From: an uncultured Dehalococcoidia bacterium
Lineage (GTDB): Bacteria; Chloroflexota; Dehalococcoidia; Lucifugimonadales; GCA-2712585
Assembly (NCBI GenBank): GCA_958295715.1
Contig: OY282371.1
Coordinates: 1,721,697 to 1,785,696, forward strand
Length of the DNA stretch: 64,000 bases
Reading direction: 5' to 3'
A program made the translations under genes and the position numbers. The first letter of the stretch is position 1; each line of letters starts with the position of its first letter. The notes under the pieces were generated by a model. The model saw nothing but the letters and a program-made list of their open reading frames with translations, made no database searches and was not told the origin of the DNA. Shown here in pieces: positions 6,498 through 15,166 of this stretch.

Positions 6498-6620
6498 GAG
6501 CGACGCCGCGCCCCGACCCGTCCCGCTAACCCTGCGAGGGGGCGTAGACCTCTACAACCCGGCCCCGGCTCCCCAGGGGTGACGCCGCGCCCCGGCCCGC
6601 CCTGCTAACCCTGCGAGGGG
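6462..6620. repeat. 79-bp direct duplication across convergent gene ends
   Basis: Two units of about 79 bases lie head to tail (about 6462-6540 and 6541-6620, roughly 90% alike). Each contains the 3' tail of the dehydrogenase (TACAACCCGGCCCCGGCTCC) and the reversed 3' tail of the GNAT gene (CTAACCCTGCGAGGGGGCG). The first unit supplies the real dehydrogenase stop, the second the real GNAT stop. The outer halves are spare copies. Confidence 0.8.
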
Positions 6621-7177
6621 GCGGCCAAGGCGTCCCTTGCGGCCAACTTCTCCTCCCGCACCCGCTCCCAACGGCCCCGGCGTATCTCCATCAGGATGAA
6701 CTTCCGCTCAGACCGCCGCACCGTTCTAACGGCGTCGAAACCGCACTTCTCAAAGCACCGCCGCGCCCGCGTGTTCCAGTCCAGGGTGTGCAGGTAGAGG
6801 CGGTTCATTTTCATGGACGAGAAGACGTGGTCCAGCAGCGTGACCATCACGTCGAAGCCGTAACCGTTATTCCAGTAGCCGCGGTCGCCTATCATAATGC
6901 CTATCTCGGCCTCGCGGTTGATGACGTCGATGTCGTAACACATGCAGTTGCCTATGTAGACGCCGTCCATAGTGTCAACGGACATCCGCTTCACCCACAC
7001 CATGGGCTGCTCCAACTGGCCGCGGAAGACGCGTAGAAACTCATCGTAGCCCATCGACAAGGGCAGGGCCGCGTCCAACTCCGAAAGCTCCGGGTCCGAC
7101 CGCCACAGGTACTCATTCCAGGCGTCGGCCAGCCTCTTCTCCCTCAGCGCCACCCTGCCGCCCTGCAAGAGGGCCAC
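6605..7177 (-). CDS. GNAT-family N-acetyltransferase (RimJ/RimL-like)
   Basis: A 190-residue acetyl-CoA-dependent acyltransferase. The fold is recognisable from the N-terminal VALREKRLADAWNEYLW, the central beta strand AEIGIMIGDRGYWNNGYGFDVM (acetyl-CoA binding, RimJ-like G/W-x-x-G/N pattern), and the RLYLHTLDWNTRARRCFEKCGF block that closes RimJ/RimL-type enzymes. The acceptor may be a protein N-terminus, an amine or an antibiotic and cannot be told. The GTG start shares one base with the TAG of the Nudix gene, so the two are translationally coupled. It converges with the dehydrogenase. Confidence 0.85.
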   Translation of the reverse strand: MALLQGGRVALREKRLADAWNEYLWRSDPELSELDAALPLSMGYDEFLRVFRGQLEQPMVWVKRMSVDTMDGVYIGNCMCYDIDVINREAEIGIMIGDRGYWNNGYGFDVMVTLLDHVFSSMKMNRLYLHTLDWNTRARRCFEKCGFDAVRTVRRSERKFILMEIRRGRWERVREEKLAARDALAAPSQG

Positions 7178-7797: not shown

Positions 7798-9081
7798 ATG
7801 GCATACTCAGACACAGTTATGACCAAGACCGACCGCAACCTATGGAACGCCATAGTCAGCGAGGCCATGGCCCTGCTCAAGTACAACGCCTACGCCGTTA
7901 AAGCCCTGGAGGAGGGCCACCCGGAAATCGCCCAGATATTCCAGGAGACCGCCGGGGCGGAAAACATCCACGGCATGAACCACCTCCGCACCGCCGGGGC
8001 CATCAAGTCCTCGGAGGAGAACCTGGTGGAGGTCACCAAGGGCGAGGCCAAGGAGATAACCTCCAAGTACCCCCGCATGATTCGCGAGGCCCTTGACGAG
8101 GGGCGGCGCGACGCCGCCCGGGCCTTCACCGTGGCCATGGACAGGGAGCGATACCACCTTGAAAGCTTTATGAAGGCGTCGGACGTCCTCCGCGCCAAGC
8201 TGGACCGTGAGCAGTCCGGCGACGCGCGGCCCGTCCTCGTTCCCCAGACCGTCGAGTACGTCGCCGCCCCGGAACCAGTCGCCGCTCCCACCGCCGCGGC
8301 GCCCCCGGCGTCCGCCGGAGCCGAGCGCCACGACGCGCATCACCTCATCCGCGCCGAGTCCGAGTTCCCCCAAGCCGTCCACGAGATAGCCCAAGAGCGG
8401 TGGCGCGTGGCGGCCTTTGGGCGGGTCCGCGAGGTCATCTTCGGGGCCCAGGACGGCCTCATCAGCATCCTGGCCCTCGTCACCGCCGTGGCCACCGCAT
8501 CCAACGACACGACAACCGTCGTCATCGCCGGCCTCGCCGGGGCCCTGGCCGGCATGATATCCATGGCCACCGGCACCTACCTCGGCTCCAAGGCCGAAAA
8601 GGAGGTCTTCCAGGCCGAAATCGAGAAGGAGGCCAAGGAGCTTGAGGAGAACCCCGCCGAGGAGATGGCGGAACTCGTCTTCTTATATCACCAGCAGGGC
8701 ATGACCTATCACGAGGCCAGGGAGATGGCCGAGCACATCGCCTCCGACAAGGAGCTTTGGCTCCGCACCCTGGTTGAAAAGGAGCTTGGCATCGACCCGG
8801 ACCTGGTGTCCAACCCCCTAAAAGACGCCCTCACCATGGGGGCGACCTTCATAGTGGCGGCCATGGTTCCCATAATCCCCTACTTCTTCATGGGCGGGAA
8901 CCTGGCCATCGGCGTCTCGGCCGGGGCGGCCCTGGCCGGCCTCTTCGTCCTTGGCACCGCAAAGGGACGCCTGGTGAAGAAGTCGCCGCTGCTCCAGGGG
9001 CTGGAAATCCTGGCCATCGGAACCGTGGCCGCCGGCATCGGCTGGCTCCTCGGCGAGGTCATACCCGGCATCATCACCTAG
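7798..9081 (+). CDS. Rubrerythrin-VIT1/CCC1 fusion (MbfA-like iron exporter)
   Basis: A 427-residue membrane protein joining a ferritin-like diiron domain (about 1-135) to a VIT1/CCC1 iron/manganese transporter domain (about 200-427) by an Ala/Pro linker. Diiron ligands are visible as E22, E55-x-x-H58, E97 and E117-x-x-H120. The transporter half begins REVIFGAQDGLISILALV, the VIT signature, has the EEMAELVFLYHQQGM cytoplasmic metal-binding helices, and ends in paired membrane helices. MbfA proteins with this layout export iron and protect against oxidative stress; the same role is inferred here. AGGAG precedes the ATG. No Fur or Irr box was identified. Confidence 0.88.
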   Translation: MAYSDTVMTKTDRNLWNAIVSEAMALLKYNAYAVKALEEGHPEIAQIFQETAGAENIHGMNHLRTAGAIKSSEENLVEVTKGEAKEITSKYPRMIREALDEGRRDAARAFTVAMDRERYHLESFMKASDVLRAKLDREQSGDARPVLVPQTVEYVAAPEPVAAPTAAAPPASAGAERHDAHHLIRAESEFPQAVHEIAQERWRVAAFGRVREVIFGAQDGLISILALVTAVATASNDTTTVVIAGLAGALAGMISMATGTYLGSKAEKEVFQAEIEKEAKELEENPAEEMAELVFLYHQQGMTYHEAREMAEHIASDKELWLRTLVEKELGIDPDLVSNPLKDALTMGATFIVAAMVPIIPYFFMGGNLAIGVSAGAALAGLFVLGTAKGRLVKKSPLLQGLEILAIGTVAAGIGWLLGEVIPGIIT

Positions 9082-9222: not shown

Positions 9223-9627
9223 ATGATAGATTCACCGAATCAGCAGATCATGGATGAACCACTTTTCCGACGCAGAGACATCCAAGCCTTAGACATTATC
9301 AGGGAAGCCCTGAAGGATCATGTGCGCGATATCAACCTGATTAAACTTGAATGCATGATATATGGGGGCGACCGGGCAATTTATTACTATCGTGACATCA
9401 ACTGCGAAGAGGCGAAGCGATTATGTAGCATAGAATTATCGGATGTCCTCCGCCTTAAAATAACAGAGTGGGATAACGGTGAAAACAAGAGAAAAGAAAA
9501 ATTTCTGATTGTTGATTCGTGGGACGCCTTCCGAGAACACTTGGATAAGATCCGAGAGTACGCCGCCAGGGGCGAATGGATAAAGCGTACCCACCCCAAA
9601 TCTAAGTACTCCAGATATCCTCATTAG
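9223..9627 (+). CDS. Unknown 134-residue protein, tandem copy 1
   Basis: Not recognised. A charged soluble protein with an acidic/basic helix-strand pattern: an N-terminal helix (RRDIQALDIIREALKDHV), a strand region with YYYRD, then ITEWDN, KEKFLIVDSWDAFREHLDKIREYA and a basic tail. GC content is visibly lower than the flanks (near half), with codons such as TTA, ATA and AGA that neighbours avoid, a sign of foreign origin. The GGAGGG ribosome site lies unusually far (about 12 bases) from the ATG. No signal peptide or membrane segment. A second copy follows 185 bases on. Confidence 0.65.
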   Translation: MIDSPNQQIMDEPLFRRRDIQALDIIREALKDHVRDINLIKLECMIYGGDRAIYYYRDINCEEAKRLCSIELSDVLRLKITEWDNGENKRKEKFLIVDSWDAFREHLDKIREYAARGEWIKRTHPKSKYSRYPH

Positions 9628-9812: not shown

Positions 9813-10217
9813 ATGATAGATTCACCGAATCAGCAGATCATGGATGAACAACCTTTCCGATGTAGAGACATCCAAGCCTTGGGCATTGTCAGGGAAGCCC
9901 TGAGGGATCAGGTGCACGATACCAACCTGATTAAACTTGAATGCATAATATGCGCGAGCTATCACGCAATTTTTCTTTATCGTGACAGCGACTATGAAAA
10001 GGCAAAGCGATTATGTAAGGTCGAAAAATCGGATGTCCTGCGATTTAGAATAACAGAGTGGGATGAAGTCAAAGGCAAGAGAAAAGAAAAATTGATGCCT
10101 GTTGATTCGTGGGATGGCTTCCGACAAAACATGGATAAGATACGGGAGTATGCCGGCGTGGGCAACTGGATGGACCGCACCCGCTACAAGAATGGATTCA
10201 TCAGATATCCCCATTAG
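9813..10217 (+). CDS. Unknown 134-residue protein, tandem copy 2
   Basis: Paralogue of the gene at 9223-9627, same length, about 70% identical by eye, beginning with the same 13 residues (MIDSPNQQIMDE). The 5' leader is copied too, including the distant GGAGGG. The middle is the most changed part (ICASYHAIFLYRDSDYEKAKRL against MIYGGDRAIYYYRDINCEEAKRL), while ITEWD and VDSWD are kept. The open frame survives considerable divergence, which suggests selection on the protein. Its own promoter was lost in the duplication; it may be read from copy 1. Function unknown. Confidence 0.62.
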   Translation: MIDSPNQQIMDEQPFRCRDIQALGIVREALRDQVHDTNLIKLECIICASYHAIFLYRDSDYEKAKRLCKVEKSDVLRFRITEWDEVKGKRKEKLMPVDSWDGFRQNMDKIREYAGVGNWMDRTRYKNGFIRYPH

Positions 10218-10257: not shown

Positions 10258-10905
10258 TCACCCCTCCACCATGCGGAAGCCCAACGCCCGGCCAAACTGG
10301 TATTGCAGCGTGTAGGCCACCGTCTCCACGTCAACCGGCTCAGCCAACAGCCTGTGCAGCGACGTCACCTTCCCCGCCGGGGCGCCGCAGGCCACAATGT
10401 GGCGGTAGTAGTCCAAGTCAACGCCCACGTTCAGCGAAAGGCCGTGGAAGGAGACCCCGCGGCTAATCTTCACGCCAATGGCCCCAATCTTCTCGCCGCC
10501 CACCCACACCCCCGTGGCCCCCTCCGGCGCGTCCGCGGCGACGCCGTAATCCGCCAGACTCCGCACCATCACCTCCTCCAAGGCCCTGACGTACTTCAGC
10601 GGGCCGCCCCACCGCCTCAAGTCCAGAATGGGATAGGCCACCAGCTGCCCCGGGCCGTGGTAGGTGGCCTCCCCGCCGCGGTCAACCTCATAGACCGGCG
10701 TCCCCATACTGCCAAGCTCCTCCCGGTCGAAAAGCACGTGGTCCCACGAGCCGCGGCGTCCCAGGGTGTACACGTGAGGATGTTCAACAATCAGCAGCGT
10801 GTTGGGACGGTTCCCCACCCGCACCTCCTCCACCAACCCCTTCTGCATCTCCCAGGCCCGCAAGTAGTCCATCGTGCCCAGGTTGACGACACGGCAGACG
10901 TCCAC
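10258..10905 (-). CDS. lipB: Octanoyl-[ACP]:protein N-octanoyltransferase
   Basis: Transfers octanoate from acyl carrier protein to the lipoyl lysine of E2 and GcvH proteins, the first step of lipoate assembly. The 215-residue length is typical. Signatures are DRGGEATYHGPGQLVAYP (near 78-95), GEKIGAIGVKISRGVSFHGLSLNV, and HIVACGAPAGKVTSL with the catalytic Cys and nearby Lys. A GTG start lies five bases after the E2 stop, so it is the last gene of the 2-oxoacid dehydrogenase operon and would lipoylate the E2 made from the same message. LipA is not in the window. Confidence 0.94.
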   Translation of the reverse strand: MDVCRVVNLGTMDYLRAWEMQKGLVEEVRVGNRPNTLLIVEHPHVYTLGRRGSWDHVLFDREELGSMGTPVYEVDRGGEATYHGPGQLVAYPILDLRRWGGPLKYVRALEEVMVRSLADYGVAADAPEGATGVWVGGEKIGAIGVKISRGVSFHGLSLNVGVDLDYYRHIVACGAPAGKVTSLHRLLAEPVDVETVAYTLQYQFGRALGFRMVEG

Positions 10906-10910
10906 CGCAG

Positions 10911-12179
10911 CTAGGATATGGGCGCGCCGGGTCCCATTCCTTCCAACCCCGACTTCACCGACCGCAGGAAGGCCGCGGCCTCGTACCCGTCTATTATGCG
11001 GTGGTCAAAGGACAGGCACATGTTCATCATAGACCGCGCCACGATGTCATCGCCAACCACCACCGGCCGCCTCTGGGTCGACTCGGTGGTCAGGATGCCC
11101 GCCTGGGGGAAGTTGATTATGGGCTTGGAAACGAGGGTGCCCAGGGCGCCGGCGTTGTTCACCGTGAAGGTCCCGTCATGCACCTCATCCAGGCTCAGGC
11201 TGCCCTCCCGCGCGTGGCTCACCAGACTGCGGAGGGCCTTGTTAATGTCGGATATGCTCAGCGAGTCGGCGTTTCGGATGACCGGCACCACCAACCCGGT
11301 GGGAGCGGCCACGGCCACGCCCACGTGAACGCCCTTCTTGAGGGCCACCCTGCCATCGCGCCACGACGCGTTGAGATAGGGATGCTCTTTAAGGGCCACG
11401 GCCACCACCTTTATCACGAAGGGCAGGGCCGTGATATCCTGCCCCTCGGCCCGCAGCCGCTCCCGCGTCGCCTGCCGGAGCTCCAGCAAGTTGGTGACGT
11501 CCACCTCAATCATCGTCCAGGCGGTGGGAATCTGCGACGCGCTCATGGCCATGTTCTGGGCTATGATGCGCCGCACCGGGGTAAGCTCCACAATCTCCTC
11601 GTCGTCCCTGGCGACGGGAGGCGGAGCCGGCGTCCCGGCAACTGGCGTCGCTGCCGTGGACGCCTCTATGAAATCCAAAACGTCCTTCTTGGTCACGCGG
11701 CCATTTATCCCGGTGCCCCGCACCCGCGACAGGTCCACCCCGCGCTCCTGGGCCAGCTTCATCACCACCGGGGAGTAGCCGCGGCGCGCCGGAGGGGCCG
11801 GCTCAGGCGCGGCCTCCTCCCCGCCCGACGCCCCGGTGGGACCCACGCTTACCCTGCTCTCCACCAGGACCCCCACCGTGCCGGCGCTGCTCGCCCTCTC
11901 GGGTGGAGGTTTTGGCGCGCCTGCCAGGGCCTCCGCGTCCTCCGTATCCATCTCGGCTATCACCGCGCCAAAGGGGATGGTGGCCCCTTCCTGCACCAGA
12001 ATCCTGGTCAACACCCCGCCAAAGGGCGCGGGCATCTCCATATTCACCTTGTCGGTGATAACCTCCACCAGCGGGTCGTACTTCTCCACCCTATCGCCGG
12101 GCTTCTTCAGCCACCGGTCGATTATCCCCTCGACGACGGACTCGCCCACCTGTGGGAGTTCTATAGGAACAATAGGCAT
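10911..12179 (-). CDS. 2-oxoacid dehydrogenase E2 component (dihydrolipoyl acyltransferase)
   Basis: Core acyltransferase of a pyruvate/branched-chain 2-oxoacid dehydrogenase complex, 422 residues. An N-terminal lipoyl domain (about 1-78) carries the lipoylated Lys in ITDKVNMEM. A flexible Pro/Ala-rich linker is followed by a peripheral subunit-binding domain (RRGYSPVVMKLAQERGVDLSRVRGTG...GRVTKKDV, about 130-170), a second linker and the catalytic domain (about 195-420) with SFDHRIIDG near the end. It lies between E1 beta and lipB on one transcript. Substrate preference cannot be read from sequence; no E3 gene is nearby. Confidence 0.92.
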   Translation of the reverse strand: MPIVPIELPQVGESVVEGIIDRWLKKPGDRVEKYDPLVEVITDKVNMEMPAPFGGVLTRILVQEGATIPFGAVIAEMDTEDAEALAGAPKPPPERASSAGTVGVLVESRVSVGPTGASGGEEAAPEPAPPARRGYSPVVMKLAQERGVDLSRVRGTGINGRVTKKDVLDFIEASTAATPVAGTPAPPPVARDDEEIVELTPVRRIIAQNMAMSASQIPTAWTMIEVDVTNLLELRQATRERLRAEGQDITALPFVIKVVAVALKEHPYLNASWRDGRVALKKGVHVGVAVAAPTGLVVPVIRNADSLSISDINKALRSLVSHAREGSLSLDEVHDGTFTVNNAGALGTLVSKPIINFPQAGILTTESTQRRPVVVGDDIVARSMMNMCLSFDHRIIDGYEAAAFLRSVKSGLEGMGPGAPIS

Positions 12180-12189
12180 CGTTTACCCT

Positions 12190-13173
12190 CTAGTACGCCG
12201 CCAGCTTCTGAAGGGCGTCTCTAATTTTGTCGGCGTTAAGCATATAAGCGTCCTCCAAGGTGGAGGCGAAGGGCATCGTCGGCACGTCGGGGCCGCACAG
12301 CCGCATGATGGGGGCGTCCAAGTCTTCAAAGGCCTCCTCGCCGATAATGGCCGACACCTCGGCGCCAACGCCTCCCGTCGTGTTGGCCTCGTGAACTATC
12401 AACGCCTTCGCCGTCTTCCTCACCGACGCCAAGATGCCCTCCTTGTCCAAGGGCCTCAGCGTGCGGAGGTCCAGCACCTCGACGCTCACCCCCTCATCCT
12501 CCATCATCTCCGCCGCCGCCAGGCAGTAGTGCAGGGCCAGCCCGTAGCTGATAACCGTCACGTCGGCGCCCTCGCGCTTCACGTCGGCCACGCCGATGGG
12601 CAGCGTGTACTCCCCATCCGGCACCTCGCCCCGCACCCCGCGGTAGGTCTTCTTGTGCTCCAGGCACACCACCGGGTTATTGTCCCTAATGGCCGCCTTC
12701 AGCAGGCCCTTGGCGTCGTAGGGGTTGGAAGGCGCTATCACCTTGAGGCCCGGGGTGTTGTACAGATAGCTCTCAATGTTTTGGGAATGGAACAGCCCGC
12801 CGCGCACGCCGCCGCCGTAGGGGATGCGCACCACCATAGGGGCGGGAAGCACGCCGTTGCTGCCGTAACACACCCTGGCGGCCTCGCCGATTATCTGATT
12901 CGCGGCGTACCACCAGAAGTCGGAAAACTGGATCTCCGCGATGGGACGCAGCCCCTTGAAGGCCAGCCCCAAGGCTATCCCGGCTATGGAGGCCTCGGCC
13001 AAGGGCGTGTCGATGACCCGCCGCTCCCCGAACTCCTCCACAAACCCCTGAGTGGCCAGAAACACCCCGCCCCGGGCGCCCACGTCCTCGCCCAGGGTCA
13101 TCACCCGCGAGTCGGCGACCATCTCCTCGCGCATCGCCTCCCTCACGGCCTCTATAACAGACTTAACGGTCAT
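12190..13173 (-). CDS. 2-oxoacid dehydrogenase E1 beta subunit
   Basis: A 327-residue beta subunit of a thiamine-diphosphate-dependent E1 decarboxylase. It has the transketolase pyrimidine-binding domain with LGEDVGARGGVFLATQGF, GIALGLAFKGLRPIAEIQFSDF and PYGGGVRGGLFHSQNIES, and a C-terminal transketolase domain with EVLDLRTLRPLDKEGILASVRKT. Family length is normal. AGAGGAAGG precedes the ATG, nine bases after the E1 alpha stop. PDH and branched-chain E1 beta proteins are too similar to separate by eye. Confidence 0.92.
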   Translation of the reverse strand: MTVKSVIEAVREAMREEMVADSRVMTLGEDVGARGGVFLATQGFVEEFGERRVIDTPLAEASIAGIALGLAFKGLRPIAEIQFSDFWWYAANQIIGEAARVCYGSNGVLPAPMVVRIPYGGGVRGGLFHSQNIESYLYNTPGLKVIAPSNPYDAKGLLKAAIRDNNPVVCLEHKKTYRGVRGEVPDGEYTLPIGVADVKREGADVTVISYGLALHYCLAAAEMMEDEGVSVEVLDLRTLRPLDKEGILASVRKTAKALIVHEANTTGGVGAEVSAIIGEEAFEDLDAPIMRLCGPDVPTMPFASTLEDAYMLNADKIRDALQKLAAY

Positions 13174-13182
13174 CGCCTTCCT

Positions 13183-14217
13183 CTAGGGAGAGTACACGTG
13201 GCGCATGAGGGTTGAAGGGTCCGGCGGCTCGGCCTTCTCGGCCTCCTCCGTGGCCCGGTTCACCTCTTCCCGCGCCTCGCCCCGTATCCTCTCCTCCTGA
13301 CTGGTCGTCAGGACGCCTATATTCGTTAGATAGCTCCGCAGCTTGACCAGCGGGTCCCGGCCCTTAGACGCCTCTAAGTCCTCGGCGCTGCGATACCTGG
13401 TGTCGTCGTCGTCGGAGGTGTGGGGCCTCAACCGCTCCACCTTCATCTCCAAGAAGGTCGGCCCGCCGGACTCCTCCCGCGCGCGCTCAATGGCCGCCTT
13501 CACGTTCTGGTACACCTCCAGCAGGTCCGTGCCGTCCACCACCCGCCCCGGGAAGCCGTATCCCGCCGCCCTGTCCGCCAGGTCCTTAATGGCCATCTGC
13601 TTCTCTTGGGGCACCGAAATGGCCAGCCGGTTGTTGTAGCAGACGAACACCACCGGGGCCTTGTGGACGCCGGCGAAGTTCATCGCCTCGTGGCACTCCC
13701 CTTGGCTGGAGCCGCCGTCGCCAAAGCTGACCAGCGTCACCGTCTTCTCACCCAAAATCTTGCACCCGATGGCGTATCCCACCGACTGGCACAGGTTGGA
13801 ACCCACCACGTTGGAGGTCTGTATCATGGGCCGGTCGGTGGACGCCCCTTGCAGGAGGAACTGCCGGCCTCCGTTGAAGCTGTCCCCCTCCTTGCCGAGG
13901 TGCCCTATCACCAGTTCCATCGGCGTTATGCCGAACACCAGCTTAAGGGCCATGTCGCGGTAGTAGGGAAAGAGGAAGCAGTCGCCATCCTCCTTGGCGG
14001 CCAGTCCAACCCCCAACGACGCCGCCTCCACCCCCTGACACGACGCCACCAGCGGCGCCTTGCCCTGCCTGTTCAAGGCCCACAGCCTGTCGTCCAAGGC
14101 GCGGGTCAACGTCATCTTGGCGTAGAGACCAAGCATCGCCTCATCGGTCAGCCCAAGACTGCGATGCAACGGCATGGCCTCCGTCCCCAGCGACGCGCCT
14201 TCCCCGGTCTGGAACAT
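13183..14217 (-). CDS. 2-oxoacid dehydrogenase E1 alpha subunit
   Basis: A 344-residue alpha subunit of the E1 decarboxylase. The thiamine-diphosphate motif is present as FGDGGSSQGECHEAMNFA running to CYNN, and the phosphorylation-loop region reads ERLRPHTSDDDDTRYR. The ATG at 14217 is six bases after GGGGAGG and is preferred to the TTG two codons before it. It heads the operon E1 alpha-E1 beta-E2-lipB. A terminator-like hairpin ends only some 24 bases upstream of this start, and the promoter is about 220 bases upstream, so the leader may control expression. Confidence 0.92.
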   Translation of the reverse strand: MFQTGEGASLGTEAMPLHRSLGLTDEAMLGLYAKMTLTRALDDRLWALNRQGKAPLVASCQGVEAASLGVGLAAKEDGDCFLFPYYRDMALKLVFGITPMELVIGHLGKEGDSFNGGRQFLLQGASTDRPMIQTSNVVGSNLCQSVGYAIGCKILGEKTVTLVSFGDGGSSQGECHEAMNFAGVHKAPVVFVCYNNRLAISVPQEKQMAIKDLADRAAGYGFPGRVVDGTDLLEVYQNVKAAIERAREESGGPTFLEMKVERLRPHTSDDDDTRYRSAEDLEASKGRDPLVKLRSYLTNIGVLTTSQEERIRGEAREEVNRATEEAEKAEPPDPSTLMRHVYSP

Positions 14218-14240
14218 GCGCAACCTCCCCTAAAAACTAA

Positions 14241-14268
14241 GTGGGGGCATCCGACGGGACGCCCCCAC
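14241..14268 (-). terminator. Terminator-like hairpin in the E1 alpha leader
   Basis: On the minus strand GTGGGGGCGTCC and GGATGCCCCCAC form a 12-pair stem (one G-T wobble) around CGTC, followed by TTAGTTTTTAG. This has the form of a Rho-independent terminator. It lies downstream of the promoter at 14441-14470 and directly before the ribosome site at 14224-14230, so it is more likely an attenuator than the end of the preceding gene. Confidence 0.65.
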
Positions 14269-14283
14269 GCTGCTTGTGAATTC

Positions 14284-14308
14284 ACCTTGGGCCGGTAATG
14301 CCCAAGGT
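14284..14308 (-). promoter_or_regulatory. Second leader hairpin upstream of E1 alpha
   Basis: A perfect 9-pair stem, ACCTTGGGC/GCCCAAGGT, with a 7-base loop, 16 bases before the terminator-like hairpin in the same leader. It could be part of a switch. No known riboswitch consensus was recognised. Confidence 0.45.
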
Positions 14309-14440
14309 CTGCCTAATTATGCGGCTAATGTTGATTATCATGTGCTGGCGCTTATCAACGGATTGCCCTGTCTCAACGGACCGCGCCCAAACCGGATGCG
14401 CCATCCTGAGCCTCCCGGCAACCCCATCCTGACACTGAAA

Positions 14441-14470
14441 ATTTTAGCCAAGCAACCCCTCCCATGTCAA
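14441..14470 (-). promoter_or_regulatory. Promoter of the 2-oxoacid dehydrogenase operon
   Basis: TTGACA (14470-14465) and TAAAAT (14446-14441) with an 18-base spacer on the minus strand. Transcription should begin near 14434, giving a leader of about 215 nt before E1 alpha. Confidence 0.7.
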
Positions 14471-14497: not shown

Positions 14498-15166
14498 CTA
14501 CACCGGGGCGAACCGCGGGCTCCCCCAGTCCTCCGACGGGTTGGCCGCCATCAGACGGATGAACATCGGGACCAGGAAGGCCATGATTCTCGCCCCGTCT
14601 TGCACCTGGCTGCGGTTCAAAGACCCGTTCCAGGTCGCCCCGCCGTGAATCAACTGGTTCCGCAGAACGTACAGCCGGTTGAACACCTCGGTCAGGATGA
14701 AGTGGGTGTCCTCGTAGGCGAAGGCGCGGTGGGCCAAGTCCCCCCTTCTGTTAAAGTCAGACTCCCAACTGAAACGCCCGAACCCGCTGTGATAGTCCCA
14801 GAACTGTTTGAAGAAGAACTTGTTGTTAAGCAACACCCTAATAGGCCCGTGGAACCGGCCCCAGATGGCGTTGCGGACCGTGTTCTTCGAGTCAAGCCTC
14901 AATATCTTGTCGAAGTACTCGGAGAACCGGTTTTGCTCATACGGCTTCAGGTCTCGCCGAATCTCCCTGTCGTAGGCCGCATTGAAGGCGATCCAGTAGA
15001 ATATGAAGGCCGCATCGTCGTCGCCCTTCTCCCGCTTGGCGCGCTCCAACCAGCTTAAGGCCCGACGCATCCGCAGGCGCAGCTTGTCCGGCAAACTGCC
15101 CCAGAGGTCCCTGTCCGCCTGAAGCCCCCTAAAGGTCAAATCCTTGCCCCTAGACTCAAGAACCAT
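14498..15166 (-). CDS. HEPN-domain protein, probable ribonuclease-type
   Basis: A 222-residue soluble helical protein. Near the C-terminus, R169-N-x3-H174 within VLRNQLIHGGATW is the R-x4-6-H motif of HEPN domains, and an upstream helix has FIFYWIAFNAAYD, typical of Apea-like/large HEPN families. Many such proteins are RNases in defence or toxin systems; others have lost activity. No nucleotidyltransferase antitoxin gene lies beside it. The gene has a good AAGGAGG seven bases before its ATG and sits between the PIG-L gene and the dehydrogenase operon. Function is inferred from the motif only. Confidence 0.65.
   Translation of the reverse strand: MVLESRGKDLTFRGLQADRDLWGSLPDKLRLRMRRALSWLERAKREKGDDDAAFIFYWIAFNAAYDREIRRDLKPYEQNRFSEYFDKILRLDSKNTVRNAIWGRFHGPIRVLLNNKFFFKQFWDYHSGFGRFSWESDFNRRGDLAHRAFAYEDTHFILTEVFNRLYVLRNQLIHGGATWNGSLNRSQVQDGARIMAFLVPMFIRLMAANPSEDWGSPRFAPV

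Follow-up and report, generated by a model that had tools for sequence, protein, structure and literature searches.

The window, as we call the whole 64,000-nucleotide stretch of Dehalococcoidia DNA that was analysed, carries on its minus strand an apparent operon for a 2-oxoacid dehydrogenase complex, with E1 alpha first and lipB last (Table 1). The gene order E1 alpha–E1 beta–E2–lipB is the same in two genomes of the same GTDB family, G004 and G006. A rubrerythrin–VIT1 fusion protein (7798–9081, plus strand) is encoded near the operon here and also near it in G004 and G006, and two tandem paralogous ORFs of 134 aa each lie at 9223–9627 and 9813–10217 (plus strand), the first without a Pfam match and both without a PADLOC match. 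Upstream, on the operon's own strand, a 222-aa ORF at 14498–15166 has no match in Pfam, NCBIfam or PHROG; it looks HEPN-like from a weak CARF–HEPN match (PADLOC E = 0.026) and an RNQLIH motif.

Table 1. The operon and its leader in the window, listed in the direction of transcription
Feature	Positions	Strand	Basis
Sigma-70-type promoter, TTGACA-18-TAAAAT	14441–14470	−	11/12 consensus positions
Conserved leader start, TTG after SD-like AGGG (7-nt gap)	14356–14358	−	Aligned starts in relatives
Isoleucine-rich leader peptide ORF, MIINISRIIRQTLGITGPR then stop	14282–14341	−	Ile density; homologous ORFs in G003, G004, G006
Invariant Ile–Ile codon pair ATA ATT, CATAATTA, just 5′ of hairpin 1	14314–14321	−	Identical in 4/4 family members
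Hairpin 1 (protector, segments 1:2), 9 pairs, ACCTTGGGC/GCCCAAGGT	14284–14308	−	Folds in G000 (window's genome) and G004
Intrinsic terminator hairpin (segments 3:4), 12 pairs, tetraloop CGTC	14241–14268	−	Scan, shuffles, conservation
T-rich tail of terminator, TTAGTTTTTA	14231–14240	−	Sequence; ends at E1 alpha ribosome site
Shine-Dalgarno of E1 alpha, GGGGAGG	14224–14230	−	Sequence
E1 alpha, 2-oxoacid dehydrogenase complex, first operon gene, ATG at 14217	13183–14217	−	PF00676 E = 5.8e-74; TIGR03181 below cut-off
E1 beta	12190–13173	−	NF006667 above cut-off
E2 acyltransferase	10911–12179	−	PF00198, PF00364, PF02817
lipB, lipoyl(octanoyl) transferase, last gene of apparent operon	10258–10905	−	TIGR00214 above cut-off

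The DNA ahead of E1 alpha has the layout of a classical attenuator, with a promoter, a short leader and an intrinsic terminator in front of the operon's first gene. An earlier note on the window had picked out the promoter and a leader of about 215 nt, reaching from it to the E1 alpha start, with a 9-pair hairpin and then a 12-pair GC hairpin whose T-rich run ends at the ribosome site; all of these elements held up on re-examination. The promoter is the top match of its region, where 10 kb contained five promoter-like sites against 2.0 expected. Terminator-like sites in general are no more frequent than chance predicts (5 in 10 kb against 7.8 expected), and the 12-pair stem with its tail is the strongest of them. 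The GC content of this stem (9 G–C pairs) was matched by 0 of 300 dinucleotide shuffles of the window leader; the terminator is beyond chance. The leader as a whole also folds better than shuffled sequence (z = −2.4) and is single-copy within its genome.

Between the promoter and the hairpins lies a feature absent from the earlier note, a short ORF in which 6 of 19 codons specify isoleucine (14341 to 14282: ATG ATA ATC AAC ATT AGC CGC ATA ATT AGG CAG ACC TTG GGC ATT ACC GGC CCA AGG TGA). The ORF ends at the foot of hairpin 1, where the T of its stop codon is also the last base of the hairpin; the 5′ arm of the hairpin begins six bases past the ATA–ATT pair. The conserved start codon is TTG in G003 and G004 and ATG in G006, in all three behind an SD-like sequence and each in frame with the isoleucine codons of its own leader. 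In the window, the TTG (first base 14358) is one base out of frame with them; its frame ends at a TGA at 14340–14338 that overlaps the ATG at 14341, a codon without a good ribosome site. The isoleucine ORF of the window thus needs reinitiation at the ATGA overlap, direct use of the ATG at 14341, or a sequence error.

Several comparisons support a conserved leader. First, of seven members of the family examined, four contain the E1 alpha of the operon (the window's own genome, G003, G004 and G006), and all four retain the promoter, the isoleucine-rich ORF, hairpin 1 and the terminator, with E1 alpha proteins in the three relatives that are 60–73% identical to that of the window. A pattern search located the G003 leader on a different contig of its genome, directly ahead of a fragment of E1 alpha. 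Each relative has, at the matching position, a promoter of the form TTGACA/T, 17 or 18 nt, TAGAAT. The gene upstream of the leader varies: the window has the HEPN-like ORF there, G004 has an aminotransferase, and G006 has neither.

Second, the leader peptides (MISPISWIIRIRLIIRQTLSLTGPRQISS then stop in G003, MKFSSKDNIIIESIITQTLGIICPG then stop in G004 and MRIIIEAIIITKGFGP... in G006) share their isoleucines with the window. Over ten aligned codons, three isoleucine columns are invariant, one of them through synonymous codons, and the remaining residues drift. The best nine codons contain 5, 5, 5 and 6 isoleucines in the window, G003, G004 and G006, densities equalled in 3, 5, 5 and 0 of 1,000 dinucleotide shuffles, respectively, so that chance is an unlikely source of isoleucine density in four of four leaders.

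Third, the distance from the ATA–ATT pair to hairpin 1 is 4–6 nt in all four leaders, so close that a ribosome stalled on the pair would mask the hairpin's 5′ arm, as ribosome-controlled attenuation requires. Both stems are kept in the relatives: hairpin 1 has one mismatch in G003 and a different sequence in G006, and the terminator is conserved in the four genomes, with both bases of one pair replaced among three of these. A covariation test on three or four leaders gave no significant result, as only four leaders exist, and most pairs are invariant. Because MAFFT misaligns G006, its leader was compared by eye.

Fourth, a covariance model built from three leaders and run against 247 genomes of the order matched only at the E1 alpha operon in the window's genome, G003 and G004, plus one site in G244. 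The model misses G006, whose hairpin 1 differs in sequence. The G244 match was rejected as a leader; it is a terminator between convergent genes.

A rival account of the terminator would be that it ends transcription of an upstream gene, or sets a fixed level of expression, without regulation. A co-directional ORF does lie upstream in the window (14498–15166), but the promoter sits between that ORF and the terminator, and the upstream gene changes among genomes while promoter, ORF and hairpins stay. We regard this account as very improbable. Conditional termination, as the earlier note had proposed, is well supported by comparison, given that the parts are kept in four of four family genomes despite differing upstream genes and that a second family shows a promoter-proximal terminator of similar sequence before E1 alpha.

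This second family, f36, emerged from a scan of the regions upstream of E1 alpha in 82 further genomes of the order; a few of these regions were truncated at contig ends. Eleven f36 genomes have a terminator, mostly of a GGGGGC type, between a TATAAT promoter and E1 alpha, and such terminators are rare by chance (0 to 2 of 300 shuffles each); no such leader was found in the remaining families of the scan. Within f36, the leaders of genus g86 (L110 and L129–L138) have a conserved promoter (TTTGCCGTGCC..TATATAATC), a GGGGGCTTCTGACCAGCCCCC-type terminator and a ATTCTATTTTC tail before E1 alpha, which suggests a second attenuator-like leader. The leaders of these 11 genomes are mostly without an isoleucine-rich ORF. 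Ile–Ile pairs do occur in G197, G200, G206, G211 and G221, each expected in 12–28% of cases by chance, and G207, the sister of G206, has none; with these pairs within chance, we claim for f36 only the conditional-terminator layout and not isoleucine sensing.

The f36 leaders bear on a further reading, in which the terminator is conditional and is read by a protein, a small molecule or a trans-acting RNA, the isoleucine-rich ORF being incidental. That most of the f36 leaders pair a promoter-proximal terminator with no isoleucine-rich ORF would fit such a signal, as would the conservation of CATAATTA as nucleotides and not as codons alone. The isoleucine density of all four leaders in the window's family argues against it, as does the lack of a fitting Rfam class, and we consider it improbable. 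An Rfam 15 scan of the window leader gave no hit above the gathering threshold, and no meaningful one at any E value up to 5, which bears out the earlier note's statement that no known riboswitch class is recognisable.

A T-box would likewise sense the charging of tRNA and have a terminator at its end, and relatives in the family use one at ilvBNC. A T-box or other Rfam riboswitch was rejected for the dehydrogenase leader: RF00230 was unmatched in the window and the two relatives searched, with ilvB T-boxes as positive control, and no T-box bulge sequence was seen in the window leader. The ilvBNC T-boxes of G003, G004 and G006 score 106–115 bits with RF00230; such leaders stand before ilvBNC in the family at L069:11966–12177, L070:6630–6861 and L071:645–852. 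The ilvB leader of the window's own genome (L068, about 6600–6810) is T-box-like by eye and falls below the Rfam gathering score, with a changed T-box sequence (GGGTGGCGCCACGG).

We judge it probable, from the comparisons above, that the leader, placed before E1 alpha–E1 beta–E2–lipB, acts as a ribosome-mediated transcription attenuator and senses isoleucine through the charging of Ile-tRNA. The promoter, ORF and hairpins, with their conservation and spacing, are read directly from the sequence, and the isoleucine-rich leader peptide is most likely the sensor. We infer that Ile-tRNA is the signal and that the operon would be on when isoleucine is scarce. Transcription would begin at the promoter and a ribosome would presumably translate the short ORF. 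Under scarcity, the ribosome would stall at ATA–ATT and its footprint would mask the 5′ arm of hairpin 1. This would leave the 3′ arm free to pair with the terminator's 5′ arm, and RNA polymerase would continue into E1 alpha–E1 beta–E2–lipB. With plentiful Ile-tRNA, the ribosome would move on to the leader stop codon, at the base of hairpin 1; the terminator would then form and end transcription.

This 1:2, 2:3, 3:4 arrangement of segments matches that of classical attenuators. The alternative pairing that would open the terminator stem, which the earlier note had recommended looking for, was sought by in silico folding of the RNA with a ribosome positioned on the last isoleucine codons. It is clear in G004, where the 3′ arm of hairpin 1 and the 5′ arm of the terminator pair at −15.7 to −16.7 kcal/mol, and in G006 (−10.5 to −10.8 kcal/mol; 17 of 1,000 shuffles as good). 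In G003 it is moderate (181 of 1,000 shuffles as good) and in the window it is weak, at chance level (616 of 1,000).

The direction of the switch could also be the reverse. With plentiful isoleucine, a ribosome translating the leader would advance as far as the terminator, or through it, and suppress it, as at pyrBI, so that abundant isoleucine would induce the dehydrogenase. Induction of this kind is the natural logic for a degradative enzyme, on which a switch that is on when isoleucine is scarce would be odd. Two of the leaders fit the on-when-scarce sense poorly: the isoleucine-rich frame of G006 has no stop before the terminator and continues through it and past the E1 alpha start, and the frame of G003 stops about 4–6 nt ahead of the terminator stem, where a ribosome would cover its 5′ arm. 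Abundant translation could therefore suppress the terminator in these two genomes. Against this, the leader stop of the window and G004 lies at the foot of hairpin 1, at least 13 nt before the terminator stem, which is the classical layout, and the antiterminators of G004 and G006 favour the classical sense. We consider the reversed sense unlikely, less so than a signal other than the peptide.

The identity of the enzyme bears on this question. In the window, G004 and G006, the E1 alpha of the operon scores below the NCBI cut-offs for pyruvate dehydrogenase, and G006 has a second, separate E1 alpha that passes one such cut-off, so that the operon complex is probably of a branched-chain type, a point in favour of the reversed sense. 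The E1 alpha loop HTSDDDDTRYR is short, of the length found in the Thermus enzyme, as opposed to the longer loop of Bacillus pyruvate dehydrogenase, and the protein is closer to the Thermus 2-oxo acid dehydrogenase (1um9), which we take to be a branched-chain enzyme; E1 beta is closer to pyruvate dehydrogenase. We regard the enzyme as probably not a pyruvate dehydrogenase and as likely to act on a branched-chain substrate. The window's genome yielded no HMG-CoA lyase, which acts late in leucine breakdown, and the complex need not therefore belong to a complete route of that kind.

Ribosome-mediated attenuators that read amino acids are a textbook means of controlling biosynthetic operons and tRNA synthetases, exemplified by the ilvGMEDA, ilvBN, trp and his leaders of E. 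coli. The leader described here shares with those four an ORF rich in one amino acid, a run of its codons before a protector hairpin, a terminator before the first gene and a possible antiterminator. It differs in that it controls an operon for a 2-oxoacid dehydrogenase instead of a biosynthetic operon, in that it encodes isoleucine only, with no valine and little leucine, and in the weakness of the window antiterminator. In the pyrBI attenuator, UTP is sensed through polymerase pausing; the leader ORF there spans the terminator, as in G006, whereas the input is UTP and not the isoleucine codons seen in the dehydrogenase leader. Actinobacterial ilvB leaders and the ilvB-II and ilvB-OMG motifs have an upstream ORF rich in branched-chain amino acids, which in Actinobacteria overlaps the terminator, again as in G006; all of these are located before ilvB (PMC1262725, PMC10272879), and the window leader has no Rfam match. 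In the open-access papers searched, no case of such a leader came up, either ahead of a 2-oxoacid dehydrogenase operon or in Chloroflexi. The device is most likely of a known kind, an amino-acid attenuator, with an unusual target.

A more far-reaching reading, which we rate as rather unlikely, is that Dehalococcoidia recruited an amino-acid leader-peptide attenuator to the operon of a branched-chain-type 2-oxoacid dehydrogenase, next to the T-box on the biosynthetic ilv operon; its sense may be reversed, with abundant isoleucine giving read-through. If so, one cell would read its supply of branched-chain amino acids by two RNA devices, one for synthesis and one for breakdown. An isoleucine-reading attenuator before a 2-oxoacid dehydrogenase operon would widen the known use of attenuators, in a lineage known mainly from metagenomes, and the direction of the switch is a testable question that it raises.
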